From assembly GCA_034440575.1 (NCBI GenBank), contig JAOTOL010000419.1:1-64000 (forward strand): a stretch of 64,000 bases of DNA, read 5' to 3'. A model generated the notes under the pieces. The model was not told where the DNA came from, did not search any database, and was given only the letters and a program-made list of their open reading frames with translations. Origin of the DNA: Imbricaverruca yamaguchii. Lineage: Eukaryota; Arthropoda; Thecostraca; Neoverrucidae. The first letter of the stretch is position 1. Every line of letters begins with the position of its first letter. Below, one piece after another: positions 7,409 to 63,926 of this stretch. The translations under genes were made by a program, and so were the position numbers.

Positions 7409-7436
7409 GTGGTGGTGGTGGTGGATTGGAGTTTAA

Positions 7437-7469
7437 GGGCGCGTCGACATCTAGGGTCATTTTGCGCCC
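7437..7469 (-). other. 3'-terminal stem-loop of LINE B
   Basis: Sense strand: GGGCGC, loop containing AAAATGACC and GTCGA, then GCGCCC. The same structure is found at the 3' end of copies C (41683-41715 region), E and F, in more altered form in D, and in the solitary short units. Its conservation suggests it is the 3' recognition structure for the LINE reverse transcriptase (inference from LINE biology). Confidence 0.7.
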
Positions 7470-7559
7470 ATAACTGAATTGTAATCAATATACGGTGCTG
7501 GTATCATAGGTCACTATCCATCTTTACGGGTGGGGGTATATCACGTCAAGGCGAGCTTC

Positions 7560-8360
7560 TCAAATGAACATAAAAATATTCCCAGACGCAACGGCCTCAG
7601 AGTCGTTCCCTATAAGCATACGTAAAGAAGAGTCGGTATTCAACCGTCTTAAAATCTGGCGTCGTAGAGGATCTAGCAGTGTACAGCTAACTAAAACATG
7701 GTACACGGTAAGCGGGTTAGAACAGCGCGGACATACGGGACGGCCATTAACGGTCAACATATAACTATGTGTTGCAATGGTATGGCCTATTCTCAATCGA
7801 CAGAGTATTACTTCTTCCCGACGTTTGGTTCGGTGAGAGGATGGCCATTTTCCTAGTGTCGATTTTAAAACCCTGAGCTTACTACACTTCGAATTCCAGG
7901 ATCGTTGCCATTCTGACCGTATACTTAACAATATAGTAGGGTATATATCTCTTGGAGGGAGCCGTAGATGGACCACACGACCATTGTTAATGGCGTCTTT
8001 GGCGGTTATGTCAGCAGCTTCGTTTCCCGCGAGTCCCACATGGCTAGGAATCCAGCAGAACACGATATTTCTTCTGATGCCATGTAAGGATTTTACCATT
8101 TCCATAATCCTCCGAACAGGTCGGTTATCCTGGTTAAAGATGTTCAGTGCCTGGAGACTGCTCAGAGAGTCTGTGAAAACCACATGCTTTGTGGACCGAT
8201 CTTTCTGTATAAAATAGAGGGCTTGCAGAATGGCATACAGTTCGGCAGTAAAAATCGAGGCTTGCATAGGAAAACAAAAAGATCGAACACCTTGTCGACT
8301 TACGTAAGCACGCCCGACGCCAGAGACCGACTTTGAGCCGTCTGTGTAAATGCGCGAAAA
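7560..8360 (-). pseudogene. RNase H and C-terminal Cys/His region of LINE B ORF2
   Basis: RNase H catalytic acids are visible: IYTDGSK (near 8335), FTAELYAI (Glu), FTDSLSSL (Asp), then CWIPSHVGLAGNEAAD (His, Asp). The conserved CRLRIGHT.ATH region follows, with CPRC, a Zn-like C-terminal motif. The main open part is 7560-8267. Readable and largely undamaged, but separated by frame breaks from the RT at 8491-9510. Confidence 0.85.
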
Positions 8361-8490
8361 GTCGTGATTTACAATGCTAACATACGGAGTTCCTCTGGGT
8401 TTACCTGTCCTTTCTTTGAGCAGGTCAAAGTCACGTCAGTCTTCACTGGGACAGCAGGCCAAGGGGGAGTTCTCGGTGTGATCACACGTG

Positions 8491-10007
8491 CTATGGAACG
8501 CGGCCGGATATTACATTCTCGAAGAATCGAAGACATACGAGTGGAAAACGGTAATGCACGCTGAGCCCTGTGACGTGCTCTTGATGTTTCTGAAAATATC
8601 CACCGATAAGCTGGGTTGTTCCAGTCTTGTGCGACATTACATGCGTATCTCGCGCCCAATAACTTACGGCGTAGCGCAAGAGGTCTACTTCTGTCATTAC
8701 ACTAGCAGCATGTGAGGTGCGAAAGGCTCCAGTAGAAATACGAAGAGCTGCATTGTGGATCACATCAAGGCGACGCTTGGTTGTGGCACACGCTCCGTCA
8801 TAAATAAAACATCCATAGTCAATTTTAGAGCGCACGAGCGAACGATACATAAGAAGCAAGATAGATCTATCTGCTCCATACGAACATCTAGAGACTGTAC
8901 CCATTACCTGTAGTCGCTTTGCATATTTTTGTGCAAGATCGTTGATGTGGGTGGTGTATGTCAGTCGGCGATCCATCCACACACCCAGAAAGTTGGCAGC
9001 TGGTTTGAATGGTATATGGCGTCCATTGAGCATAATCACGGGGTTAGTACAGGAGCGTTTGCGGCAGAAGTGGATAGCGATGGTTTTCGATGAAGAGATA
9101 ACGAAACCGGTTTTGTTGCACCAATCCTGCACCTTCCGAACAGCCATCTGGAGTTGTCTCTCAACCGTGTGCACAGAGCGTGAAGAGAACCATATGGCGA
9201 AATCATCCACGAAAAGCGCTCTCCCTACGGAAGTTGGCAGCAATGTACTCAGGTCCTTAATTGAAATAGCAAACAATGCAACGCTTAGTACGCTCCCCTG
9301 CGGGACTCCATTAACTTGTGAAAAAGTGCCAGATAGGGAGTTTCCTATTCTAACGCGAAACGTTCTGGAAGACAGAAAATTGGACAAGAAGACACCCATG
9401 GGACCTCTGATTCCCATATTTTGGAGCTTCATCAGGATCCCGTGACGCCACGCCGTATCATATGCGTCGTCGATGTAAAAAAATATTACTGCTGTATGGT
9501 GGCGTTTCATAAACCCAGAGCGTACAACCGAGTCCAGTAATAAAATGTGGTCTACGGTGTTTTGCTACGGTGTGTGATACGGTGTTTTCGGAATCCACTC
9601 TGTATTACAGTAAGGAGATTGTTACGTTCTAAAAACCACATCAATCGGACATTCACCATTTTTTCAAACAATTTACACAGGGAGCAGGTCAGTGAGATGG
9701 GACGGTAATGTAATGGATCCGTGCCTGATTTCCTTGGTTTATGTATGGGCACTATAATTGCTTCCCGACATGACGGTGGAAATGTGCCGGATGTCCACAT
9801 TACATTTAGTTCTTCCAAAAGTGTTTCTAAGGCAACAACTGGTAAACGTTTTATGATATCATTATGCGGAATGTCGGGGCCCTCTGCCACGCTCTTGAGT
9901 GTGCCGATCGATGCAGTTAATTCAGAAATGGAGAATGGTATGTTATACTGGAAGACGTCTGTAGTGGAAAATGAAGAGGACGTGCCTCGCACCGATCCTT
10001 GTGTCAC
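8491..10007 (-). pseudogene. Reverse transcriptase of LINE B ORF2 (two pieces)
   Basis: The N-terminal piece (9552-10007) carries GPDIPHNDI, a KPRKSGTDPLHYRPISLT block and GFRKHR. The C-terminal piece (8491-9510) carries motif A FFYIDDAYDTAW, motif B GVPQGSVLS and motif C FVDDFAIW. It ends in the thumb/linker with TGAFRTSH. One frame break lies near 9530-9550, and another just downstream shifts the NPAYRW linker. Motif A has two acidic residues in line with other I-clade RTs. Confidence 0.88.
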
Positions 10008-10414
10008 AAAAATTGCTCGTTATATGTGTTTTCCGAGCGTGCGGACGAGGCACACCCCATCTTGTCAGCCACTTCTTCTGGGTCGATGATGTCCTGTCCT
10101 GCCATGTGCAAGACGGGAAGAGGAACTGGGGAGTGTTTCCCAGAGAAACGGTTAATACGGGACCATACGGTAGACAGTGACGTGGAACGATTTAACGTGC
10201 TTACGTACGATTTCCACGAGTCTCGTTTCGCCTCGGCAATAATACGTCGCGCAAGCGCTCGTGCTTTGCGGAAAGCTATTAAATTGTACGTGCAGCTATT
10301 ATTGTTAAATGTACGGAATGCCCTCTTCCTAGCACGGATAGCCTCCAGATACTTATCGGACCACCATGGGACTGGTGCTCGAATTGACGTCCCCGAAGAT
10401 CGAGGGATGTGGTG

Positions 10415-11208
10415 CTAGGCACTCTGCACAGTTGCCGAAGTGAATGTTTCTATGGAGATAACGGATTCATCGGAATGGTCGCGGAGCGTGCTTTCAAGGT
10501 GACCTTGGAAAGCTTCCCAGTCGGCTCGGTGAAATATCCACTTTGAAGGTCGCCGACTAACCGTAACTCGATTAATGAAATGGGAGTAGACAGGAAAGTG
10601 GTCGCTGTTATGTGGGTCGCTATCAACCGACCATTCTAAGACAGGTGCAATTTCTGGACTGCAGAGAGTGAGGTCCAGCACGTCTGACGTCTGACGTCTG
10701 ACCAGTTGGTAGTGTAATATGTGTTGGTGTTCCCGTGTTAAGAATGCAGAAAGAGAAATCACTTATAAAACGTTCCATTGCACGCCCACGGTTAGTAATC
10801 TTTGTTGAGCCCCAAAGAGAGTGGTGCGCATTAAAATCGCCGCACACCATCACCGGTGGTGTGAGTTGAGCCACAGTTTCAGAAAGATCAGAAAGTGGAA
10901 ATAGCCTGCCCGGTGGTAGGTATATGCTACATATAGAAACGACACGGGATTTATTACTGCACGAGCAGCAATGCACTAAATATTTGAAGAGAGAGAGGAA
11001 CATGTGTGAATGGGACAGAGTTGTGCACAGCAATGAACACACTGCCACGTGACACAGTGCTAGACGACACATCTTTTCGTAAAACGGTGTAATTTCTTAG
11101 ATGAAACTGAGCACCTGGAGCCAGTTTTGTTTCCTGGATACATACTACCGATGGCGTACGGGAGCTTAAAAGATGCTGGAGGTCACTGAAGCTGGATTTG
11201 ATTGCCAT
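10415..11208 (-). pseudogene. AP endonuclease of LINE B ORF2 (frameshifted)
   Basis: Three overlapping frames together cover an exonuclease-endonuclease-phosphatase domain. VCIQETKL (10954-11208) is the Glu motif. VMVCGDFNAHH is in 10623-11072. NSDHFPV, the SDH catalytic end, is in 10415-10762. A triplicated GACGTCT run at about 10680-10700 (CACGTCTGACGTCTGACGTCTG) causes one of the frame breaks and looks like replication slippage. Confidence 0.82.
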
Positions 11209-15728: not shown

Positions 15729-15783
15729 GGTTGGTTATTTGGGTTCAGGGGCGCATCGACTGCGTTGATCATACAGCGCCCAT
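15729..15783 (-). mobile_element. Solitary 55-bp LINE 3'-end unit
   Basis: Contains the I-LINE 3' stem-loop only (plus strand GGGGCGCATCGACTGC ... CAGCGCCCAT) and its TTGGTTATTT tail. It is flanked by AAGTGGTTATTT (15717-15728) and AAGTGTTCATTT (15784-15795), a 10/12 match that looks like an old TSD. No other LINE sequence is attached. Confidence 0.65.
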
Positions 15784-18860: not shown

Positions 18861-19086
18861 TGTTTGTTTGCTTATTAGGGTTATTTTTGGGTGCGTCGAC
18901 CCTAATTGGGCTATTTTGCACCCATAATAAGCTTAATTAGGTTTTTCCTGTCCGGAGAGCAATAAATATATGACACTATTTCAATATCTACCCAGGTATG
19001 CATATTACTTTAGCGAGAAAGGAAAAAAATGTAATATTCTTCACAAATCGCGAATCATCACCAAGTAGATCCACCAGCATCAGTGT

Positions 19087-37480: not shown

Positions 37481-37584
37481 ATGTGATGCCAGACGGTGTA
37501 CCAGCTGAAGAAGAACCTTGGTTTCTTTTACGACGTATTCAACCGCTGGGTTATATAGCGTCGCCAACCTCTCACGCCGATTGG

Positions 37585-37690
37585 TCGCGGGTGAAGAATA
37601 GCTGCAGGTGAGGCTCGAACCCACAATCTTTCGATTGCGAGACGGACAATTTACCCCTAGACTACTCATCCCCTGGCTCCCCAGATCACG
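37585..37690 (-). mobile_element. tRNA-like SINE relic
   Basis: On the minus strand: A-box-like GTAGTCTAGGGGTAAAT and B-box GGTTCGAGCC with the T-arm GTGGG/CTCAC able to pair. The anticodon arm (CAATCGAAAGATTG) has an abnormal loop, so this is not a working tRNA. Downstream sequence shares GTCGTAAA with the SINE at 32006. No TSD found. Confidence 0.55.
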
Positions 37691-37699
37691 CCGGGGTCA

Positions 37700-38268
37700 C
37701 ATCACAGGCGCGGAAACGACCGGTGACACGTGCACGGGACACTTCTGGCCAACAGGCTAGTTGGCTGACAATAACATTCGGCAAGCACCATGTTGCACTC
37801 CGCTACACTCACACCTCACCCTGGCCACCCCACAACCCTCAGCCATAATCCTGGCTATGTTCATACATCCATCCCTCTCTCAAGAGCTGAGGCACTGAAG
37901 AGCTGGTGTTTTCCCATCTTTTGCAATTTTGAATGCTAATTGTTTTTGTTCTACACAAGCAAGTTTGGGCAGATCAGATTAAGGCTTTCCATGTATAAGT
38001 ATTGAAGAAAAAATTCCACAAATATTTTTTTTTTCTAAATGGGAGGCTAGGCAGTTTTATTCCACTTTAAGGTAATCCAAAAAGAAGCTTACACCCATTT
38101 TCCCTCCATTAAGCAAGCATTTTATGCTATATTACCCAACCCAAAGCCCCTTCTTTTGGTGTTCTTTCGAATGTCAACTTAAAAAGTACTTTGAGAAGGA
38201 ATGGTGTGCATGTTAAGTGCTCATGACCACTGGACTGGAAAAGGAAATTCCGAGAATTAAAAAGTACC
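37700..38268. other. Non-coding, no feature recognised
   Basis: No recognisable gene or repeat between the SINE relic and the TTAA element. Confidence 0.4.
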
Positions 38269-41664: not shown

Positions 41665-41884
41665 GTTAGTTAGTTATTAGGGTTTTAGGGCCATCGACTA
41701 CATTGGTCATGTAGCGCCCATAACAATACAACTTACTTACACGTCGATATATCACATATCCTAGCTAGTTAAGCTTGCAGAATAATAGTTGACACAACGA
41801 ATCGTACATAAAATAAAATATGGCAACATTCAACATTTTGAACTTGGTGCATATATTACTGAAAATGCTATTTCAGAGATGTAG

Positions 41885-42910
41885 TTAAATAGTCGCCCTG
41901 ATCGAATAATATCCGATTGATTGATTATTTGGGATTAAGGGCGCATCGACTACTAAGGTCATTTTGCGCCCATAACTCTTGTAGCTGGAGAATGATACTG
42001 CAGATAAGAAGTCCATCAATCGTCCCGACTGGACAATGCTCGAGTTATCGGAGAGAATATCGCTAAGGGAATCCACCCGGTCAGACCCAAAATGACGACT
42101 ACGCTCATCAGCGTAATGAGGACACGATATCAAAACGTGGCGAACTGGTAGCGGTGTACAACATCTCGAGCACAGAGGATTGTCGCCACCGCATAGTAAA
42201 TACCCATGCGTAGCATAAGTATGCCCTATACGGAGACGGCACAATGTGACCTCTTCTTGTCGACGTTTGCGACAGGACGAGCCCCATGGCCGTAAACGCT
42301 GTTTGGTGGTTCGTAGTTTGTACGCCGACGTCGCGTCCCACACAGCCTGCCACTTGTCTAGGAGGAAGGTGGATACCTCTCGGTAGTGGTCAGTGGCGGG
42401 GAGTGGCAGTGCTCGAGAGCACGGTGCCTTTGCCGCTCGTTTCGCCGCAGCATCCGCCAACTCATTACCGGAAATGTCAACGTGGCTCGGAAGCTAACAT
42501 AGAATAACTCGTCGTCCAAGACGTTCCATATCGGTAAGACAGCTCACAATATGCCGCAGAAGGGGGTTTGGTGGATAAAACATGTTCAGGGCCATAAGAC
42601 TACTTAAAGAGTCGGTGAAAATGACATGTCGATCACCCCCAGACACTTCGATATAACAGAGAGCTTCCGCAATAGCGACAAGTTCCGACGAATACATCGA
42701 TGCGTACGTCGGGAGCGAAAACGAGCGGGAGACAGATCCACAAACAAAAGCGCTGCCAACACCGTCCTCAGTTCGAGAGCCGTCAGTATACGTGGCTATC
42801 CATTCCTGGAATGTTTCAATATGTTGAAGAGCCAGTGCACGAAATTCTGCTGGAGGGATATCGGATTTTCTGATCCTCGCAATGGATACATCCATCTCCG
42901 GTGTAATCAT
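41885..42910 (-). pseudogene. RNase H and C-terminus of LINE C ORF2 (nonsense codon)
   Basis: 42494-42910 contains ATYTDGSRT, SSELVAI and FTDSLSSL (Asp, Glu, Asp). An in-frame TAG then replaces the Trp of the conserved CWIPSHV, and the frame continues with SHVDISGNELADAA and LCRLRIGHTYATH, CSRC. The end of the reading frame (from YGRKMTL) is encoded by a nested or adjacent LINE 3'-tail, not original sequence. Otherwise well preserved. Confidence 0.85.
41919..41972 (-). mobile_element. Probable nested LINE 3'-end unit in LINE C 3' region
   Basis: GGGCGCATCGAC..TTTTGCGCCCAT with a (GATT)n tail, 250 bp inside the true 3' end of copy C. TSD not visible. It could instead be an internal duplicate of the LINE 3' end. 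Confidence 0.5.
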
Positions 42911-43014: not shown

Positions 43015-44526
43015 TCAGGTTTCGTTCCCCTGAAGAAAAAAAATGGTCAAAAGTCGACGCGAAAAGATGTGCGAAAAAACCGGATGGTCGGGAAACTGGC
43101 GGAGCTTGCAAGCGTAGCGCATTCCTAGCCTTGCTCTGCGCAGAGAGAGAGAGAGAGGCGGCTCGTGTGCTTCGGCTAACAGACTCACGGTGGGCGAAGT
43201 GCGGAATGCTCCGGTCGCGATTCCAATAGCGGTGTGATGAACAGTGTCCAGAGTTCGTTTGGTGGAGTTGCGTGATCCGTCATAGATAGCACAGGCGTAT
43301 TCTAACTTGCCGGGGATCAGTGAGCGGTAAAGCAGAATAAGAGACTCCCGGTCAGCTCCATAGGTAGTTCGAGAAGCACACTTTAATATGTTGAGCGACT
43401 TAAAACACTTGTCACGGAGTGCTTTCAAATTCTCCGTGTAGCTAAGACGTGAGTCAAAAGTGATTCCAAGAAACTTCACCGCAGGTGGCATCGGTAGCTG
43501 TCTGCCATACAGCTTGAGACATAGTTCTGCATAACTACACCGGCGACATAAATGTATTGCGGTTGTCTTTTGTGTTGAAAATCGGAATCCATTCACTACG
43601 CCCCACCTGTTGAGTTTCTTCACGGCCAATTGGAGACGTCTAGACATAGTAGATAGCCTGGCTGCGCTACACCAAAGGGCGAAGTCGTCTACAAAGAGAG
43701 ACCGACCAAGTTGTGGTGGAAGGACGTCGCTAATATCATTTAGCATTATGGCAAGCAGTGCTACACTTAAAACACTTCCCTGTAGCACGCCATTCTCTTG
43801 CATACATCTTCTGGATAGCTGGTGGCCAACGCGAACACGAAAATGTCGGCCTGCAAGAAAATTATGTATAAAAATACCCATTGACCCCCGGATACCGCAT
43901 TTATGTACCTTTGTAAGAATGCCTTGGCGCCAGGTCGCGTCATAAGCCGCTTCTATGTCAAAAAAGATGGCGCCGACGTGTCGTTTCTGCTTAAATGATG
44001 TACGAACTACTGAGTCCAGTGTTAAAATGTGGTCTACAGAAGTCCGGTTCTTCCTAAAACCGTCTTGTGCATCTGCGAAAAAGTAATGTACTTCCAAAAA
44101 CCACGTTAGTCTGGTAGTTACCAACCGTTCCATTAACTTACATAAACACGAGGTGAGTGATATTTGGCGATAGTGGAGCGGTTCTAGTCCACTTTTGCCC
44201 GGCTTCAACACTGGCATCACTAAGGCACCTCGCCAGGCTACTGGGAAGTCGCCTTGTTGCCACAGATGGTTGAATATATTTAACAGTATTTCGATCGCAC
44301 GTGGGGGGAGATGCTTTATCATTTCTTTATGAATTAAGTCCGGGCCTTCGCATACGCTGCTGAGCTTCGCTATGGCGGAAGTCAGTTCGGCCATTGTGAA
44401 AGGCTTGTTATACGATATATTTTCGGTTGTGACAGTCAGGAGGGAACTTTTCACAATGCGAATTGTGACGGAAGAATTGCGGGTCCCAATTGTTGCCACG
44501 GCTACGCTCTGATATGGAGCATGCAA
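43015..44526 (-). CDS. Reverse transcriptase of LINE C (503-codon open frame)
   Basis: Longest uninterrupted RT in the window. It covers GPDLIHKEMI, LKPGKSGLEPLHYRQISLT, GFRKNRT, motif A IFFDIEAAYDATW, motif B NGVLQGSVLS (Pro to Leu against NGVPQGSVLS of copy B) and motif C LFVDDFALW, with both Asp kept. The thumb has KFLGITFD, TGAFRTSPTVSLLAEAHEPP. A small GA microsatellite adds LSLS just after. It ends by frame loss before RNase H. Likely inactive because of the motif B change, but recent. Confidence 0.88.
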   Translation of the reverse strand: MHAPYQSVAVATIGTRNSSVTIRIVKSSLLTVTTENISYNKPFTMAELTSAIAKLSSVCEGPDLIHKEMIKHLPPRAIEILLNIFNHLWQQGDFPVAWRGALVMPVLKPGKSGLEPLHYRQISLTSCLCKLMERLVTTRLTWFLEVHYFFADAQDGFRKNRTSVDHILTLDSVVRTSFKQKRHVGAIFFDIEAAYDATWRQGILTKVHKCGIRGSMGIFIHNFLAGRHFRVRVGHQLSRRCMQENGVLQGSVLSVALLAIMLNDISDVLPPQLGRSLFVDDFALWCSAARLSTMSRRLQLAVKKLNRWGVVNGFRFSTQKTTAIHLCRRCSYAELCLKLYGRQLPMPPAVKFLGITFDSRLSYTENLKALRDKCFKSLNILKCASRTTYGADRESLILLYRSLIPGKLEYACAIYDGSRNSTKRTLDTVHHTAIGIATGAFRTSPTVSLLAEAHEPPLSLSLRRARLGMRYACKLRQFPDHPVFSHIFSRRLLTIFFLQGNET

Positions 44527-44943
44527 TTTCGTTGAGCAACATTTACAGATTTGGTCACGTCCCTATTGCTCATGCGTAGGACGGGTAGGGGAACGGATGA
44601 ATACTGGCCTGCAATACGTTTTACTCTGGACCATACTTGTGCTGTCGGGGTATGCTTGTTTATTTGACCTACCTATTATCGCCATGATAGCTGTTTTGCT
44701 CATCTTATAATGCGACGTGAAAGAGCCCTGGCTCTCCGAAAGGCAACCATATTTATAGTGCTGCTATCTTTAATGAATTTAAGATAAGCTCGCTTTCTAA
44801 CGCGTATGGCATCTCCGCATTCCTCCGTCCACCATTGGACTGGGGTACGTCGTGGGGCACCAGGGGTGCGCGGAATACATGCAGAGGCAGAATGTAGGGG
44901 CAGTAACGTAAATTCTTCCATACTATGTGGTTTATTCTGTCCA

Positions 44944-45594
44944 TCAGCAGAGCAAGCTGTTTCTATATGTGTTATGGTAATCAGTCCAGTTGGCTTTGCG
45001 AAGATTCCATCGCCGCGGCCTCTGTCCAAGGACTGACCCTTCACGATATTCTAGCCATATTGGGAAGTGGTCGCTTCCCAGTGGTCGCTTCGTATCAACC
45101 GACCAATTAAACAATTGCACAAGCTCGGGACTACAAATACTCAGGTCTAACGCAGAAGTCTGTCTAGACGGCATTGTGAAGTGCGTTCTGGTACATGTGT
45201 TTAAAATACACGACTCTTCGTGTAGAAATTGCTCCATCAGACGTCCACGCCCATTGACATCTTCGCATTCCCAAACGGTATAATGTGAATTAAAGTCACC
45301 TAAGAGTAAAATTAGTTCCGGGAGCTGAGAACAAACAAGTTTCATCTCAGTAGATGGAAATGAAGTCCCGAGAGGCAGGTAAATACTGCATAATGAAATA
45401 CTTTTATGACCAAATTGCACCCTGGCAGCGATGGCTTGGAGGCGTGTGTTCATCACTAGTGGTTGCGAGGGCAAACTATGGTGGATGCCCAGTAGCACTC
45501 CACCATGGGAAATAGTGTCGGATGCTACTTTTCGGGGGAGGGTCTCCTGAAGGCAGAACGCCACCGGGCAGACCCTGTTCAGAACTGCCTGCAA
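44944..45594 (-). CDS. AP endonuclease domain of LINE C (216 codons)
   Basis: Open frame with FCLQET (Glu), SHGGVLLGIH, LLLGDFNSHY and GSDHFPIW, the catalytic motifs of the LINE exonuclease-endonuclease-phosphatase fold that nicks target DNA. The first residues of the domain are lost or out of frame. A linker (44700-45044) follows in another frame. Confidence 0.85.
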   Translation of the reverse strand: MQAVLNRVCPVAFCLQETLPRKVASDTISHGGVLLGIHHSLPSQPLVMNTRLQAIAARVQFGHKSISLCSIYLPLGTSFPSTEMKLVCSQLPELILLLGDFNSHYTVWECEDVNGRGRLMEQFLHEESCILNTCTRTHFTMPSRQTSALDLSICSPELVQLFNWSVDTKRPLGSDHFPIWLEYREGSVLGQRPRRWNLRKANWTDYHNTYRNSLLC

Positions 45595-46501: not shown

Positions 46502-47335
46502 TCAGATGAGAGGGACTCGTGTGTGTGTGTGCGACTGCTTCCGCGACTGTTGTGTGATGTTGGAGTTCAGCTTCACCTTCGCTGCATATAATATTATCGG
46601 GTGTGCTGCCTCGTAGATATTGCGCGCCTCACGGAATGTGATCTTTTTGAAACTTTTTATTGTAACTATGTCTTGTTCTCTCAAGAACATGGGACAAGAA
46701 CGCTCGTAGGTGGTATGGGGTATTTGGCCTGGGCCGCAGTATGAACAGTGCGGACTCTCCGCCTTACATTTATCTTGCACATGTTGTGCAGATCCACACC
46801 GTCCACATGTTTCTCGGTTCCGACAATGCTGTGACGTGTGACCAAAATGGGAGCATCGGAAGCATCTCATGGGATTGGGCACAAATACGCGAACCTTCAC
46901 ACGAACATATCCGACGAAAATAAACTCGGGAAGATCTATCACGTGGAAAGTTAAGATGATGTTGTTTGTTGGTTGTGATACCAGTCCTTTCCTAATTGAA
47001 ATTCTGCGGGCCTCTACTACTTCGCATTCTCTTAGGCTCTACAACGTCGGCATCTGAAACATCTCCTAGGTCGTAACAGTTAAGAACTCCTTTGGTTGGT
47101 TATTTGGGCTTAGGGGCGCATTGACTGCTTCGGTCATACAGCGCCCAAAGAACTCCTTTGGAGTAACTTTCATGTTGTGGGGCTGAATCTCGATACGTAC
47201 AGTGACTGTTCGCCTACTGGATTCATGTCGTTTAGTGTACGCTATTTCTGTTGCGTCCATCGCCCTCTCTGCATCTTCAGCAGTTTCAAATTCAACTACT
47301 AACCCTCCGTCTCTGCGTTTTTCGCACCTCAGCAC
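46502..47335 (-). pseudogene. Gag-like ORF1 of LINE C, split by a nested insertion
   Basis: The zinc-knuckle piece (46502-46942) carries CFRCSHFGHTSQHC (complete C-x2-C-x4-H-x4-C), CGRCGSAQHVQDKC and CSYCGPGQIPHTTYERSC. The N-terminal piece (47066-47335) carries MLRCEKRRDGGLVVEFETAE. The latter is interrupted at KVTPKEF by a 52-bp LINE tail (47096-47147) that adds codons in frame and then duplicates PKEF through its TSD. Confidence 0.85.
47096..47147 (-). mobile_element. Solitary 52-bp LINE 3'-end unit nested in LINE C Gag
   Basis: Flanked by perfect 14-bp repeats AAGAACTCCTTTGG (47082-47095, 47148-47161). Contents are only TTGGTTATTTGGGC, the stem GGGGCGC..GCGCCC and its loop. It is an unambiguous retroposition product limited to the 3' stem-loop. 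Confidence 0.88.
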
Positions 47336-53750: not shown

Positions 53751-56333
53751 GGGTGGGTCTACTCTGTTGCCCTGGGCTGTTGCCGTGACCATATTCAGAA
53801 ACTACCGAACCAAATTACACCAAACCTTCACCAATCGATTCAGATGGGTCCATTTATGTGGGACTTTTGGATATGGAGACTCTTACCATTACGCAAAGCT
53901 ATAAAATTACCCCTCAAACTTGGAGCGGCCATTTTGAAATCATTTTGAAAGTGTTGCCGTGCCCATGCTCATAAACCGCTGCACCGAATTGAACGAAACC
54001 TTCACCAATCGATGCAACATAGTCGATTTACTTGGGACTTTAAAATATGGTGACCTTGACCTTGACCTAAGGTCGCCGATTAAGTACATCTTTATTTTGA
54101 ATTGTTGCCGTGACCATGCTCCTAAACTACTGAACCGAATTTCGTGAAACCTTCACCAATAGACGTGACATGGTCGATATACTTGGGACTTTTGAATATG
54201 GTGACCTTGGCCTTAGGTCAAGGTCATCAAAAAAGCACAAAACCATTATTAAGATTTTTAACCACGCCCATACTCTGAAACTACCCAATACAATTTCATG
54301 AAACCTTCACAAATCGACGTAACATGTTCGATATACGTGGGGCTTTGAATATCGTGACCTTTACCTTAGGTCAAGGTGACAAAAATACACAAAATAGTTT
54401 TCTTGCATATTTGACACGCCCATGCTCCCAAATTACCGAACCGAATTTGATGAAACATTCACCAATCGACGTGGAATGGGCGATATATTCTGGAGTGTAA
54501 ATATGGTGACCTTGGCCGTCGGTTAAGGTCATCAAAAATGCATAAAACTCATTTTAATGGTTGTTGCGCTGCCCATGCTCCGAAAGTACGGAACCGAATT
54601 TCATGAAACCTTCGCCAATCGACGTACCGTGGTCGATATACTTGGGACTTTTGAATATGGTGACCTCGGCCCTAGGTCAAGGTCATACAAAATGCATAAA
54701 ACTAATTATAATGGTTGTTGCGCCGCCCATGCTCCGAAAGTAGGGAACCGAATTTCATGAAACCTTCGCCAATCGACGTACCGTGGTCGATATACTTGGG
54801 ACTTTTCAATATGGTGACCTCGGCCTTAGGTCAAGGACATCAAAAGTGTATAAAACTCATTTTGATGTTGTTGCGCCGCCCATACTCCGAAAGTACGAAA
54901 CCGAATTTCATGAAACCTTCGCCAATCGACGTACCGTGGTCGATATACTTGGGACTTTTCAATATGGTGGCCTCGGCCCTAGGTCAAGGTCATAAAAAAT
55001 GCATAAAACTCATTTTAATGGTTGTTGCGCCGCCCATGCTCGGAAAGTACGGAACCGAATTTCATGAAACCTTCGCCTATCGACTTGCCGTGGTCGATAT
55101 ACTTGGGACTTTTCAATATGGTGACCTCGGCCTTAGGTCAAAGTCATCAAAAGTGTATAAAACTCATTTTAATGTTGTTGCGCCGCCCATACTATGAAAG
55201 TACGAAACCAAATTCCATGAAACCAATGAGTTTTATACACTTTTGATGACCTTGACCTAAGGCCGAGGTGACCATATTGAAAAGTCCCAAGTATATCGAC
55301 CACGCACGTCGATTGGCGAAGGTTTCATGAAATTTGGTTTGGTACTTTCGGAGTATGGGCGGCGCAGCAACATCAAAATGAGTTGTATGCATTTTTTATG
55401 GCCTTGACCTAGGGCCGAGGTCACCATATTGAAAAGTCCCAAGTATATCGACCACGGCACGTCGATTGGCGAAGGTTTCATGAAATTCGGTTTCGTACTT
55501 TCGGAGCATGGGCAGCGCAACAACCATTAAAATGAGTTTTATGCATTTTTGATGACCTTAACCGACGGCCAAGGTCACCATATTTACACTCCAGAATATA
55601 TCTCCCATTCCACGTCGATTGGTGAATGTTTCATCAAATTCGGTTCGGCACTTTGGGAGCATTGGCGTGTCAAATAGGCAAGAAAACGATTTTGTGTATT
55701 TTTGTGACCTTGACCTAAGGTCAAGGTCACGATATTCAAAGCCCCACGTATATCGAACACGTTACGTCGATTTGTGAAGGTTTCATGAGATTATATTGGG
55801 TAGTTTCAGAGTATGGGCGTGGTTAAAAGTCTTAATAATGGTTTTGTGCTTTTTTGATGACCTTGACCTAAGGCCAAGGTCACCATATTCAAAAGTCCCA
55901 AGTATATCGACCATGTCACGTCTATTGGTGAAGGTTTCACGAAATTCGGTTCAGTAGTTTAGGAGCATGGTCACGGCAACAATTCAAAATAAAGATGTAC
56001 TTAATCAGCGACCTCAGGTCAAGGTCAAGGTCCCCATATTTTAAAGTCCCAAGTAAATCAACTATGCTGCATCGATTGGTGAAGGTTTCGTTCAATTCGG
56101 TGCAGCGGTTTATGAGCATGGGCACGGCAACACTTTCAAAATGAATTCAAAATGGCCGCTCCAAGTTTGAGGGGTAATTTTATAGCTTTGCGTATTGGTA
56201 AGAGTCCCCATATTCAAAAGTCCCACATAAATCGACCCAACTGAATCGATTGGTGAAGGTTTGGTGGAATTTGGTTCGGTAGTTTCTGAATATGGTCACG
56301 GCAACAGCCCAGAGGAACAGAGTAGACCCACCC
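53751..56333. mobile_element. 2.6-kb fold-back element of about 155-bp tandem units
   Basis: Left arm 53751-55166 and right arm about 55227-56333 are inverted copies around a roughly 60-bp centre. Each arm is a tandem array of about 155-bp units: CTTCACCAATCGACGT, TGGTCGATATACTTGGGAC, GGTGACCT, TTAGGTCAAGGTCATC, CCGCCCATGCTCCGAAAGTA. The outermost GGGTGGGTCTACTCTGTT is shared by both ends. The left arm has about two units more. Each unit carries TGACCT/AGGTCA half-sites. No ORF is meaningful. Confidence 0.9.
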
Positions 56334-57612: not shown

Positions 57613-58097
57613 AGGGATCGATGAAACTGCTAGTTGTTTTCAGGTATGGACTTTGAGTGTTCTCACTCGACCAAACAATGTTGTTCTTCGTTTTCTCTTC
57701 TGGAGTACAAAATATTTCATTTAGTCTAGTCACAATCCAGGAGTACATAACGTATTGGTATGCATGACACCAACAAACGTCAGTTTTTCCAACACTGATT
57801 ACAGCACTGCAAAGCCTTGAGATTACAGCTGATGTGCTGATGATTTTTAGTAAGGTTGATGGGTCCTCCAGCACGGTGGTAAATTATTAGTGAAATAGGG
57901 TGGAATACACCCAATGTTGGAAAAACTGTCAATTGTTGGTGCCATGCATACATTCATACATTTTGTACTCCAGGATTGTGACTGGACTAAATGACACTTG
58001 TTTACTCCAAAAGGGAAAAGGAAGAACAACATCGCTTGGGCAAGTGCTACCACTCAAAGTCCATACCTAAAAACAACTAGCAATTTCAGCAGTCCCT
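57613..58097. mobile_element. Inverted-repeat (MITE-like) element, about 485 bp
   Basis: Arms 57613-57800 and 57910-58097 are diverged reverse complements: CTAGTTGTTTT.AGGTATGGA with TCCATACCTAAAAACAACTAG, ACAATCCAGGAGTAC with GTACTCCAGGATTGTGACT, TTTTTCCAACA with TGTTGGAAAAA. A 136-codon minus ORF across it has no motif. TSD not seen. Confidence 0.7.
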
Positions 58098-58161
58098 AAG
58101 TACTGACCCATGAATAACCACAATACAACTTCGAATGGTGGTACAAACAGTACCTTTTTGT

Positions 58162-58212
58162 TAGTTATTTGGGTTTTGGGGCGCTTCGACCATAAAATGC
58201 GATCATTTAGCT
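58162..58212 (-). mobile_element. Solitary 51-bp LINE 3'-end unit (1 of 2)
   Basis: Flanked by perfect 13-bp repeats AGTACCTTTTTGT (58149-58161, 58213-58225). Content is TTAGTTATTTGGGTTTTGGG-type tail, GCGCTTCGACC and an altered second stem arm. Confidence 0.85.
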
Positions 58213-58237
58213 AGTACCTTTTTGTAAGCACACTGTT

Positions 58238-58291
58238 AGTTAGTTATTAGGGCTTAAGGGCGCATCGACTACATTGGTTATGTAGCGCCCA
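58238..58291 (-). mobile_element. Solitary 54-bp LINE 3'-end unit (2 of 2)
   Basis: Flanked by perfect 14-bp repeats GTAAGCACACTGTT (58224-58237, 58292-58305). Carries GGGCGCATCGAC..GTAGCGCCCA. Its left TSD overlaps the right TSD of the preceding unit by two bases. Confidence 0.88.
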
Positions 58292-58438
58292 GTAAGCACA
58301 CTGTTGATGATGATTATTGGGGTTTTAGGGATTATATTGCACCCATAACAAACTTACTTAGACATGCGTCAGATTGTCACGTTCGAATAAGAGATGTAGG
58401 ATGGAGTAAGATATCACCCAAGTAGATGCATATGTCAC

Positions 58439-59588
58439 TTAGAATCGTATCTCCGCGAGAAAGCTCAAAACTGCTCTGTTATAAATAAATCGGGAATCGT
58501 TTCCTAGTAAGTCGACTAATCTCAGAGTAGTCGCATCATATCCGAAGTGCAGCCTGCGTTCTTCTGCATATGCTGGGCACGTCATCAGCACATGGTGCAC
58601 AGACAGCGCGGCATTACACTTCACGCATTTCGGCCTGTCGTCCCCGCACAGTAAGTATCCATGAGTTGCTAGCGTGTGACCAATTCTGAGACGACAGGTG
58701 GCCACTTCGTCTCTTCTAGTTCGACTGAATGACGAGGGCTACAGTATCAAGAGTGGCTTGATTCGCTTCAACTTGTTTGGTTCTATTCGGTCCCACCTTT
58801 CCTGCCACTGCTTGAAAAGAAATGATGATATTGTTGGGTAGTGGCTAGGTTAGGTTAGGTTAGGCTGGGCTACTGGCAGGAAGTGGAAGCGCACGCCAGC
58901 ATGTCGAATGTGCCGCACACCCTGCAGCTTGCTCTGCCAACTCATTTCCACGGATTCCTACATGTGCCGGGATCCAGCAAAGTGGTACCTGCTTTCCCTT
59001 ACGATGGAGCGAAGTGAGTTGCAATAAAATGTATCGTACAATGACGTTTTGTGGATTGAAACTGCGCAATGCCCTGAGACCGATGAGGGAGTCAGTCAGA
59101 ATAACATGTAAAACCTCGTCATCAACCTCGATGTATGCCAGTGCTTTCTTGATGGCGATCAACTGGGCAGTGAAGACCGTGGCGCGTGGAGGCAGTGAGA
59201 ATGGTCTTGTGACGGACCCTCTCACGAAGGCACTACCCACTCCGGTGTTTATTTTGGAGCCATCCGTATAAGTGATGAGGTGATTATGATACGTGGTGTA
59301 TATATGCTCTAGCGGGTGTAAGTGTAGTTCCTCTTTTGTGACATCTCGCTTTCTCGTGCCAGCGAGGGAAATATCCAAAGAGGGGGAGATCAGCTCCAAC
59401 GGAGGAGTAGACAGTTCTTCATATTCCCGAATTCTTTTTAGTCGTATTTCCATTCGCTTCAAGAGTGTCCTCATTCGCACACAGTAAGGAGTTCCTCTCC
59501 TGTGATTTAGAAAGACTACATGTATGTCATGAGAAAAAACGCTGGATATGTTGGGTGTGTCCGGAACCGTCGCATTTTTCAGGCGCAT
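58439..59588 (-). pseudogene. RNase H region of LINE D
   Basis: 58860-59588 has ITYTDGSKI (Asp), TAQLIAI (the catalytic Glu is replaced by Gln), LTDSLIGL (Asp) and CWIPAHVGIRGNELAEQA (last Asp replaced by Glu). The C-terminal CRLRIGHTLATH and CVKCN are in 58439-58705, in another frame. A TTAGG-like run (AGGTTAGGTTAGG, about 58851-58863) marks the break. Catalytically dead. Confidence 0.85.
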
Positions 59589-61428
59589 CGAAGACCCAGC
59601 ATGTCGCGCATCATAGACAATGGAGGCTCATGGGCATCAGCGATCACGCTAACAGTTGGAGAGGTGCGAAATGTCCCTGTAATTATTCGCACCGCAGCAT
59701 GATGTACTGGGTCGAGCGTTCGCTTTGTTGTAGCACATGCACCATCACATATAAAACAAGCGTAGTCGAGCTTCGAAAAGATCAGACTACGATACAACAG
59801 GTGTAGTGTTTTTCTATCAGCACCGTATGACGTACGAGATACACACTTCAATATCGCGGGTGCTTTAAAACATTTGTCTCCGAGTATTTTGATATGTTCT
59901 CTGTATGTAAGACGTTGATCAAATTCCACACCAGGAAAACGAGTCACCGGTGTTGTAGGCACATCGTGCCCGTACAATCTCAACGTCATGTCCGGGCAGT
60001 TACGCCTACGTCGACAGAAGTGTACTGCAGATGTCTTTGCTATATAAAAAATTGAAGCCGTTTGTATGTCCCCATTTTTCAAGACGCGATATTGCAAGCT
60101 GCAGTTGTCGCTCCATAAGATGGGTTGACGAGCTGTGCGACCAGATAGCGAAGTCGTCAGCAAACAGAGATCGTCCGATTGATGAGGGGAGTGAGTCACC
60201 GATGTCGTTTCTTCTAAGAGAAAAGAGAGTTGTGCTCAATACGTTGCCCTGAGGAACTCCCTCGACTTGACGCAGCCAACCTGAAGTCTGGTTTCCTACA
60301 CGCACACAAAACTGTCTGTCATGAAGTTCTTGAGAAACATGCTCAAAGCTCCGCAGAGTCCATACTGATGAATCTACAGCAGGATCCCGTGTCTAGGCGG
60401 TGTCAAAGGCGCTCTCAATGTCGAAGAACACTGCCCCAAGGTGCTTGTTCTTCGCAAAAACCATACGAATTGCTGTGTCCAGCATTAGCACGCAGTCCAC
60501 TGTACAGCGATTTTTTTCGAAATCCGCACTGGTCGTTTGTTAAAATGCTGCGGGTCTCAAAGAACCAAGTAAGTCGAAAGCTAACCATTGTCTCCATCAG
60601 CTTGCACAATGATGAGGTGAGCGATATCGGACGGTAGTGGGAGGGACCATCGCCGCTTTTACTGAGCTTTAGTATCGATATTATTATTGCTTTCCGCCAG
60701 GCGGAAGGGAAACATCCAGTGGTCCACAGTTTGTTTAAAATAGTGAGAACATGTTTCGCGCACTTCGGTAGGCGCTGTAGCATTCCATTGTGTACTGCGT
60801 CCGGTCCCTCAGACACACTTTTCAAATTCCTGAGTGCGGAGGCGAGTTCAGCCTGACTAAACGGCAGGTTGTAGTGCAGTTGTTCAGTGGTGTTAAAACT
60901 GATCTCATCCTTCTCGCGCCGGGCATGGTGTTGCAGGAAAATTGGATCAGTATGTTGGCTACGATTCGCAATAGCGTGAGCAATGTGGCTTGCTACCTCG
61001 CCTGGATCAATAGTGATAATTCCTCCAATGTTGAGGGTCGGTAATGGGACTGAATTAAACTGACCAGACATCCTTTTTATACGTGACCATATTTCGGATG
61101 TTGGTGTCGTTCGGCTGATCTTCCCTATATATGCTCGCCAGGAGGAACGTTTAGCAGCATGTATGATTCGTCGAGCCATGGCCCTGGCCTTTTTAAACGC
61201 TAGCATATTACCCATAGTGCTTGCTGAACTCATTAAGAGCTCGTTTGAGGGAGCAGATAGCCTGTTTGCATTCCTCGTTCCACCAAGGAACTGGAATACG
61301 GCGCGGGTTGCCAAAGGTGTGTGGAATGCACTTATTGGCGCACTGTAGAAGTCGTGATGTAAAATCTTCCACACTAGTGCAGTGATTTTCAACGTCTGTT
61401 GTAAAAGCCATTTGTGACCGAGATTCAA
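59579..61428 (-). pseudogene. Reverse transcriptase of LINE D (frameshifted)
   Basis: 60415-61428 holds the N-terminal part: SEGPDAVHNGML, ILKLSKSGDGPSHYRPISLT, QCGFRKK. Motif A is frame-lost near 60430-60480. 60006-60305 holds EGVPQGNVLS (motif B, Ser to Asn) and LFADDFAIWS (motif C). 59579-60199 holds the thumb with SRTSYGADR and TGTFRTSPTVSVIADAHEPP. At least three frame changes. Confidence 0.85.
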
Positions 61429-61993
61429 AACTAATCCAATCTGCCGTCCTTAAGTTCCAACGTGGCGGCCGTACTCCCAGTACTACGGCTCTCCGAAAAG
61501 TCAGCCATATCGGATAATGGTCACTTCCCAGGTAGTCATCATGAACTGACCATTCGAACTGCTGAGCCAGTTCGGGGCTGGCTATGCTCAAGTCTAGTGC
61601 TGATGTTTGGCCCGATGGCAGCGCCAGATGGATGTGCGCACCTGTGTTCAGGAGGCAGAGTGGCTCGTTCAATATTAAAGCCTCCAGGATTCTACTCCGT
61701 ATGCAGATAGCTTAGCACCCCCAAGCGATGTGGTGGGCATTCAAGTCTCCCAGTAATAGTACTGGTGGTGGAAGCTCCTCCAGTAGCTGTTTCAGCTCCG
61801 CGGTAGGGAATGTTCTTCCTGGGGGCAGGTACGAGAAATTTAAATGTATGCGACGGTGGTCAAGTGTCACCTGCGCTGCAACTGCCTGCAAAGATGCTCG
61901 GAGAGGCAGCTCACGCGCTGGTATACTGTGATGGACGGCAAGTAGTACGCCTCCATGCGAGATGTTTGTAGGGTGCACATCTCTACGGTACAC
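61208..61993 (-). pseudogene. AP endonuclease of LINE D (two frames)
   Basis: 61712-61993 has SHGGVLLAVHHS and VLLLGDLNAHH (Phe to Leu in GDFN). 61208-61672 has LGSDHYPIW and NPRRIPVPWWNEECK. The N-terminal QET motif is just upstream, outside the open pieces. A stop separates the halves. Confidence 0.82.
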
Positions 61994-62191
61994 TTTGTAA
62001 CATTTAAATCTTACTATATCCTCTGGAGCTAGCTTCGTCTCTTGAAGACAGATGGCAGCAGGATTGTACCGGTGTAAAACGGTCGCAAGATCAAGAACGG
62101 AAGTCTTGAGGCCCCGGCAATTCCACTGTAAAATGGGCGTTAAAGGAGCCAGTTAAAACGAGTTAAGACGACGGAGTGACTAATAGGGCGG

Positions 62192-62757: not shown

Positions 62758-62772
62758 CTCAGATACCTCAGG

Positions 62773-63926
62773 TTAGTTATTTGGGTTTTACGGCGCATCA
62801 ACTGCAGTGGTTATACAACGCCCATAACTTAACTATTTAAACTGTGCCAATTCTAAACAATCGTACCATGCGGACTTGCTCACGTACAAGGGATTAGACA
62901 GGAGAATATATAGAAGTGAAGTTTACCTCCGAAAGAAAGTGGAACAATTTACCAGAATTGATCGCGACTGAGTAGTCCCCGAGAACATCACGAATTGATA
63001 GTGCCTGCGATCGACCAAAGTAGTGTTTGTACACATTAGAAAGCTGAGGACATGACGTTAAGATATGACGCACTGAAAGTCGTCCCTGGCATCTGGGGCA
63101 CATGGGCATATCATCACCACAAAGAAGATATCTGTGAGTTGCGCAAATATGGCCAATACGTAGGCGGCACAGTGTCACCTCGTCTCGCCTAGTCCTACGC
63201 GAGCACGAGGACCACTGGCCGATGCTAGGCTTAATTGTCCTAAGCTTGTTTTCACCGACCGCGTCCCAAAGCACCTGCCACTCACGAAAAACATAATTGT
63301 TAATGACTGGATATAGATCTCTAGCAGGAATGGCCATATATCGTGTATACGGTTTCTGTGCTGCGCGCTTTGCAGCCGCGTCAGCAGCCTCATTCCCCGA
63401 TATACCGACGTAGCTCGGAATCCAGCACATAACGATGGTCTTACCATCTGCACGTAGTGACATCAACCGTAGAACTATTTCCTGGACAATGGAGTGTGAT
63501 GAATTAAAAGACCTCAGTGCCATAAGGCTACTGAGACTATCTGTTAGGATGAGGTGCAATGTTTCGTCAGATACCTGTATAAAGCACAATGCTTTGTTAA
63601 TGGCTACCAATTCCGATGTGAAGACGGATGCCTGCACAGGTAGCGTAAAATATCGTGTGGCGGAGCCGCTAACAAACGCCGAGCCAACACCAGCTTCGGC
63701 CTTTTAACCGTCCGTGTATGTTTTCTTGTAGTCGACGTAGGACGCAATGAGGTCCAGTGCTTTAATTCGGAACTCTTGAGGTAGGGTATCATGTTTGTAG
63801 TTTTCGCTCAGTGTAACATCAATGATGGGGGACAGTAACTCCCATGGAGGAGCATCCAGAGGGCTCAGTTTGATAACGTCACGGAAAGTAATTCCACTCC
63901 GACGCAGTGCATTATGGAGCCTGGTA
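62773..63926 (-). mobile_element. I-like LINE copy E, 5'-truncated, nested in copy D
   Basis: 1154 bp with a perfect 15-bp TSD CTCAGATACCTCAGG (62758-62772, 63927-63941). It contains only the 3' end (stem-loop 62790-62824, TAACTAA tail) and the RNase H part of ORF2. Younger than its host copy D. Confidence 0.92.
62894..63720 (-). pseudogene. RNase H region of LINE E
   Basis: FTSELVAI (Glu), LTDSLSSL (Asp), CWIPSYVGISGNEAADAA (His of SHV changed to Tyr), CRLRIGHICATH and CPRC are readable in 62894-63637. Upstream, the first catalytic motif reads YTDG followed by TAA in place of the usual Ser codon (near 63707). 5'-truncated, not functional. Confidence 0.85.

Follow-up and report, generated by a model that had tools for sequence, protein, structure and literature searches.

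Insertions that consist of nothing but the 3' hairpin of a LINE and a short TAAC-repeat tail are common in the genome of Imbricaverruca yamaguchii. They are copies of LINE 3' ends retroposed by TPRT: they carry LINE 3' sequence, they are flanked by TSDs and in one case the empty site was found. Their 5' ends fall at a sharp boundary, they belong to more than one LINE variant and the stem of their hairpin covaries. The window referred to below is a stretch of 64,000 nucleotides (contig JAOTOL010000419.1, positions 1 to 64,000), and the assembly searched comprises 767 Mb in 1,430 contigs.

Hairpin-only insertions and LINEs of the window

Two hairpin-only insertions (units 1 and 2) lie side by side at 58149-58305. 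Re-reading of the sequence bore out the initial annotation as to their coordinates, their lengths of 51 and 54 bp and their 13- and 14-bp TSDs. It had also placed them next to a LINE 3' end, and this was right: the tail of the LINE ends near 58311 and both units lie on the minus strand. These insertions, the other hairpin-only copies of the window and its LINE 3' ends are:

58149..58161, no strand: unit 1 TSD, low-coordinate copy, 13 bp, AGTACCTTTTTGT, read in the sequence
58162..58212, minus strand: unit 1, hairpin-only insertion, 51 bp, 5' end four bases inside the 5' stem arm
58213..58225, no strand: unit 1 TSD, high-coordinate copy, 13 bp, AGTACCTTTTTGT, read in the sequence
58224..58237, no strand: unit 2 TSD, low-coordinate copy, 14 bp, GTAAGCACACTGTT, overlapping the unit 1 TSD by 2 bases
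58238..58291, minus strand: unit 2, hairpin-only insertion, 54 bp, variant 4, complete hairpin starting with TGGGCGC
58292..58305, no strand: unit 2 TSD, high-coordinate copy, 14 bp, GTAAGCACACTGTT, read in the sequence
47096..47147, minus strand: third hairpin-only insertion, 52 bp, variant 3, perfect 14-bp TSD CCAAAGGAGTTCTT
15730..15782, minus strand: possible older hairpin-only insertion, imperfect TSD (score 7)
58311..62089, minus strand: LINE adjoining the units, upstream in the element sense; Pfam identifies its RNase H, and tblastn against the other window LINEs its EN and RT
41668..41720, minus strand: 3' hairpin with a variant-4 LINE body upstream, the same 35 bases as in L131 and L142
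41925..41972, minus strand: 3' hairpin belonging to the LINE whose ORFs lie at 43015-45594; its near-identical counterpart stands alone at L022:6699-6753
62772..62824, minus strand: 3' hairpin of the LINE with an ORF at 62894-63637; its body matches the LINE-bodied variant-2 loci
18869..18923, minus strand: 3' hairpin of another LINE, stem GGGTGC/GCACCC (a compensated pair), with an outer closing stem
7425..7470, minus strand: 3' hairpin belonging to the LINE matched at 7560-10946; CCA repeats replace the tail

In the element sense, unit 2 reads TGGGCGC, TACATAACCAATGTAGTCGAT and GCGCCC, followed by the spacer and the TAAC tail. Unit 1 begins with an A followed by GC, four bases into the 5' arm, so its outer stem cannot form; its predicted fold was no better than those of shuffled sequences (z -0.15). 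Both units had been described as cut at the base of the GGGCGC/GCGCCC stem, which is correct for unit 2 but not for unit 1. The adjoining LINE is an unlikely source of either unit, because it no longer has the 3' arm of its hairpin and carries an ATC-type tail (58311-58346). Two further repeat structures were seen by eye in this region. Inverted repeat arms, MITE- or foldback-like, lie beside the units at about 57640-58090, and a tandem repeat, with CTTCACCAATCGACGT in its unit, is present on both arms of a long inverted arrangement at about 53900-56300, which looks like a large foldback or satellite.

The hairpin has the form GGGCGC..UGAC-loop-GUCG..GCGCCC, is bulged, and is followed by a short spacer and the (TAAC)n tail. 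Its variants 1 to 4 are AAAATGACC, TGTATAACC, TGTATGACC and TACATGACC, respectively. In 24 aligned hairpins, chosen by hand and pooling LINE, hairpin-only and SINE tails, 91.2% of the cells of the 6-bp outer and 4-bp inner stems were paired, and changes on both sides were present in 5 of the 10 stem pairs. Pairing did not exceed 50.6% in a control with slid partners. The pairing together with the both-side changes indicates that the hairpin is conserved as an RNA structure, and these LINEs have the conserved, covarying 3' stem-loop by which the stringent type is recognised. An earlier model of the inner stem, with 79.5% of the cells paired, was replaced by the UGAC/GUCG stem.

Variants 2 and 4 were present both on LINE bodies and alone, at several loci. 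Variant 1 was found in both states in one near-identical pair only (window 41925-41972 and L022:6700), and no LINE body carrying variant 3 was found among the loci examined. With two variants, and probably a third, being both LINE-borne and solo, the hairpin-only copies look like a property of the LINE clade and not of one tiny lineage.

Several LINEs of the window end in the same hairpin and tail, beside RT, RNase H and EN matches (Pfam, and tblastn among the LINEs). Judged from these domains rather than from a tree, they probably form an EN-RT-RNase H clade, which we take to be possibly linked to the I group. Of 120 listed matches to the LINE RT, the closest had about 60% identity; those named by organism were mostly from the spider Araneus ventricosus (42-45%), and the other named ones were a sea slug (Elysia, 43%) and a bacterial metagenome bin (44%). 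A different LINE RT is present at window 5071-6351 and at L011:6204-7400 with 99.5% protein identity, so a second LINE clade is young as well.

All ten of the LINE-type hairpins, complete or as remnants, that are listed at 7425-62824 lie on the minus strand; genome-wide, the places of a 24-base anchor from the hairpin were balanced between strands (4161 vs. 4059). In the LINE at 18866-18940 (minus strand), the tail pairs perfectly with the bases immediately 5' of the hairpin to form an outer stem, GCUUAUU/AAUAAGC; in other LINEs, GTTAT before the hairpin and ATAAC in the tail may correspond to this stem. In LINE RNA the outer closing stem GUUAU/AUAAC was clear in this one LINE, but the other four tried folded differently or weakly, and for this reason no conclusion is built on it.

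Copy number, insert lengths and 5' ends across the genome

Abundance was estimated in 200 kb, sampled from six large contigs as 20 stretches, each 10 kb long and placed at round coordinates. A profile of five hairpin variants matched 42 times (E<=1) in 264 kb, and one shuffled control gave no match. In the 20 stretches there were 13 matches at E<1e-6; ten of the 13 had a TSD score of at least 10 within a short range, and seven of these ten inserts measured 52-59 bp. The same 200 kb contained only one coding LINE body of this clade. Extrapolation gives a rough estimate of about 50,000 copies in the genome (95% interval 27,000-85,000).

The 24-base anchor, taken from the 3' end, matched 8,220 places in the genome with up to 2 mismatches, and its reversed control matched none. 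The first 80 of 100 listed zero-mismatch places, all in short contigs, were retrieved with 600 bp of sequence before the anchor and 100 bp after it. Insert length was unselected beyond these 24 bases, as the anchor covers only the 3' arm and the tail. The 80 loci include two duplicates (L091 of L055 and L059 of L052), which were excluded only from the 67-locus analysis of TSD length and extra bases and remain in the TSD-score, LINE-body and 5'-end counts; in addition, the target repeat of L106 is common to L052.

LINE bodies, joined to the variant-2 hairpin, were present at 7 of the 80 loci, 62 others had a TSD score of at least 9 and 11 lacked a TSD. The same score was reached by 13 of 396 mismatched flank pairs, vs. 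62 of the 80 genomic loci. TSD length was 10-19 bp with a mode of 14 (67 loci drawn from three sets and having the usual 5' end), and only a weak target-site preference was found in 50 target sites. The finder keeps the best-scoring TSD pair, which may be the wrong one in a repetitive flank: inspection of L090 and L100 revealed a closer pair exactly at the hairpin base, and L129 was doubtful. The empty site is a related repeat copy at window about 295-545, which has a single copy of the L054 target and lacks the hairpin; its identity to L054 is 76% and 82% on the two flanks.

The 62 TSD-bearing inserts had a sharp length peak: 39 measured 51-62 bp, 11 measured 29-48 bp and 12 measured 65-127 bp. 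By inspection, the spread within 51-62 bp is largely the number of TAAC repeats, and the 12 longer inserts have fillers, internal changes, long tails or, as in L090 and L100, a TSD pair in repetitive flank. The initial annotation had noted a narrow class of 51-55 bp, which is here enlarged to 51-62 bp. It had further proposed that a defined unit would give a sharp peak and random truncation a continuous distribution, and among these 62 loci the peak was present and the continuous distribution was not seen.

Relative to the first G of the hairpin, 5' ends lay at -3 to 0 in 32 of the 62 loci (a figure that is low if anything, since L090 and L100 were left as computed), at +12 to +23 in 10 and at +4 to +11 in none. 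Of the 49 ends between +23 and -5, 32 fell within this 4-base window (binomial p 2e-16 against an even spread). Thirteen of the 80 loci end inside the hairpin, 10 of them with a TSD and three (L074, L086 and L112) by inspection. The LINE bodies measured 87, 216 and 470 nt, and four reached the 576-nt limit of the fetched sequence. At the other 73 loci, alignment to window 62824-63423, the last 600 bp of one LINE, never exceeded a score of 30; with a single LINE as the query, this comparison would overlook copies joined to the body of a different LINE.

LINE bodies join the hairpin as GTTAT-GGGCGC, with one exception among the fetched loci (GTCAT in L141). Genome-wide, the GTTAT junction preceded 17 of 240 exact complete hairpins of variant 4 with TTAAG, 42 of 379 of variant 4 with TAAAG (the 42 being counted by eye from one-mismatch rows) and 41 of 343 of variant 2. 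For the three forms together the LINE junction was present in 100 of 962 and absent from 862; the 100/962 is an estimate, as changed junctions like that of L141 hide some LINE copies and GTTAT will stand by chance in a few hairpin-only ones.

Two smaller sets were also analysed. In a variant-4 set obtained with a complete-hairpin anchor, 4 of 12 loci were LINE-bodied and 8 were hairpin-only. These are 12 of the first 15 listed loci, the other three being L004 and L006, already sampled and both hairpin-only, and one that was omitted. Among 27 best-match loci, none had the LINE junction and 26 had a TSD score of at least 10 (L045 had 6), but their query carried a flank base absent from LINE copies and they were excluded from the unbiased counts; L005 and L006 of this set are the same site.

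The bases just 5' of the hairpin differ between variants. AT preceded GGGCGC in 285 of 343 variant-2 copies (244 of the 302 without LINE junction) and in 188 of 379 variant-4 TAAAG copies (146 of the 337 without it). The usual 5' end is therefore A(-2) for variant 2 and closer to T(-1) for variant 4. T, the LINE base, was found at -3 in 91 of the 244 variant-2 AT copies without junction (37%, vs. 24% T in the 200 kb); some copies were thus read one or more bases beyond the usual end, or they are LINE copies in which the GT has changed. Where extra bases precede the AT (10 variant-2 copies), they misfit the LINE sequence in seven and fit it in three. The fillers in L066, L076 and L093 restart at GGCGC, and a fold-back of the hairpin is present in L122. 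Pieces of the hairpin, inverted or re-copied, were seen in the hairpin-only copies L075, L125, L122, L135 and L008, a possible record of template jumps and of fold-back at the 5' junction.

Origin of the hairpin-only copies

The reading we prefer, to which we give an even chance, is TPRT of a template whose end lies at the hairpin base, a putative trimmed LINE 3' RNA that is copied to its end. The EN-RT-RNase H LINEs would recognise the 3' hairpin through ORF2p, the target would be nicked at sites of weak sequence preference and reverse transcription would be primed at the tail. The template would be LINE 3' RNA trimmed to the hairpin, e.g. by a 5'-3' exonuclease halted by the folded or ORF2p-bound hairpin. 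Most copying would then end 0-3 bases 5' of the hairpin, where the RT would run off the trimmed end and extra bases or refills could be added. We consider it quite possible, if rather less so than the trimmed template in general, that the LINE clade releases a defined 3' hairpin RNA of ~55 nt that is the usual template of ORF2p, that is, a LINE-coded minimal retroposon RNA.

The direction of copying bears on where the stop can arise. Arriving from the 3' end, the RT reaches the 3' arm before the rest of the hairpin; a plain structural block would therefore yield tail-only copies, but most copies hold the whole hairpin and end at its far (5') side. The initial suggestion that the RT stops at the stem of its own 3' structure thus needs qualification. 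The extra bases, mostly foreign to the LINE, together with the restarts at GGCGC and the fold-back in L122, are marks of a template end, and the restarting fillers look as if a second pass had ended at the same place. The RT of R2 is described as adding non-templated bases on template run-off (PMC2718515), and in this enzyme nontemplated addition and template jumping are reported to be linked (PMC8857657). Some observations count against a template end: the T excess at -3, the three of ten extras that fit the LINE, the 13 copies that end inside the hairpin and need no template end, and the fact that an absolute RT block at this place would be expected to give nearly the same ends.

An appreciably less probable account, though the strongest competitor, is abortive TPRT, in which ORF2p on full-length RNA would be ejected or stalled at the 5' edge of the bound hairpin and about 1 in 10 events would reach the body. 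The boundary is the edge of a conserved structure, copies extending beyond it are long and of scattered length (87, 216 and 470 nt, with four reaching 576 nt or more), as would follow an escape, and the T excess at -3 fits a leaky stop. ORF2 of zebrafish L2 is described as binding the 3' stem-loop via the region between EN and RT (PMC4176376). Abortive TPRT is less easily reconciled with extra 5' bases that are mostly not LINE-templated (7 of 10) and with three re-copying fillers that end at the same point, as at a template end; it also places the stop on the far side of a hairpin that has already been opened.

It is improbable that the 55-bp unit is an element of its own, a tiny self-propagating SINE whose solo loci are transcribed and whose RNAs are retroposed. 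Such an element would be consistent with the abundance (240 and 379 exact complete hairpins in two forms, LINE-bodied ones included) and with the variant-specific 5' end. The unit, however, is hairpin and tail alone and apparently lacks a pol III promoter of its own (tRNA, 5S or 7SL) as a SINE has, and no tRNA (ARAGORN) or Rfam family at gathering score was found in the 64-kb window. The variants are common to LINE bodies, and TTAAG and TAAAG hairpins have similar shares of LINE junctions (17/240 vs. 42/379, Fisher p 0.12), and the tiny non-autonomous element considered in the initial annotation thus finds no support as a separate lineage. A transcript of a solo copy at scattered targets should also start outside the copy and carry flank. 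A MITE or other DNA transposon was rejected as well, since the inverted arms are internal with the tail outside them, the TSDs vary from 10 to 19 bp and there are no terminal repeats.

Ordinary random 5' truncation, which would make the inserts the short end of a continuous distribution, is rejected on the length peak and has hardly any probability left: 13 loci do end at scattered points in the hairpin, and the truncation points of LINE-bodied copies are scattered too, but the 4-base window holds 32 of 49 ends and 862 of 962 hairpins lack the LINE junction.

Relation to known retroposons

The hairpin-only inserts share TPRT, loss of the 5' part and TSDs with 5'-truncated LINE copies, and the microhomology and extra bases described at R1/R2 5' junctions (PMC2718515) are alike here. 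The ends reported for truncated LINEs are various, at 100-1,000 bp (PMC3747384), whereas here a fixed end at ~55 bp dominates; where PMC13295347 and PMC2881922 deal with truncation, they treat truncated copies in general terms. No report of a dominant hairpin-only LINE product was found among the papers listed for the open-licence part of the literature. If the short-RNA reading is true, the copies of a ~55-nt hairpin RNA would be the shortest abundant retroposon class with a fixed 5' end of its own.

What determines the end points of LINE copies has long been asked. With 862 of 962 hairpins free of the junction and most of the mapped ends of two variants at one structural edge, a template end and an enzyme stop become directly testable against each other. 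The inserts also demonstrate that LINE machinery inserts as little as about 30-55 bp, and inserts this short, about 50,000 by the rough estimate, may easily escape repeat annotation.

Tailless retropseudogenes are likewise short retroposed RNAs with TSDs and truncation at defined structural positions, and enzymatically truncated source RNAs are among the explanations considered for them in PMC5322556. They are 3'-truncated, have a near-complete 5' end and are moved by L1, and the hairpin-only copies, which keep the 3' end and the tail, are their mirror image; because our copies were found by the 3' end, 3'-truncated ones would escape detection. R2 SIDEs are also short non-autonomous LINE derivatives moved by the LINE machinery via the 3' end, but they arise by internal deletion and keep a 5' ribozyme according to PMC3414825. 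Since the usual inserts start with the hairpin, they have no space for such a 5' part and differ from SIDEs in this respect.

Stringent-type LINEs and their SINEs (UnaL2 and zebrafish L2; the I factor with TAA repeats) likewise have a 3' hairpin with a short-repeat tail, TPRT and TSDs, and tails shared between LINEs and SINEs are described in PMC3747384. The known pairs consist of a LINE and a SINE headed by a small RNA, whereas here the bare hairpin is common and its binding by ORF2p is putative. The hairpin also resembles the tail of a tRNA-headed SINE in the same genome. This SINE has a conserved core and ends in a 3' hairpin related to that of the LINEs (window 37526-37715, minus strand; L015:9700-9930; L012; L010; L025), as expected for LINEs that recognise their own 3' end. 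TSDs are visible by eye in some of its copies, e.g. around L015:9834-9904.
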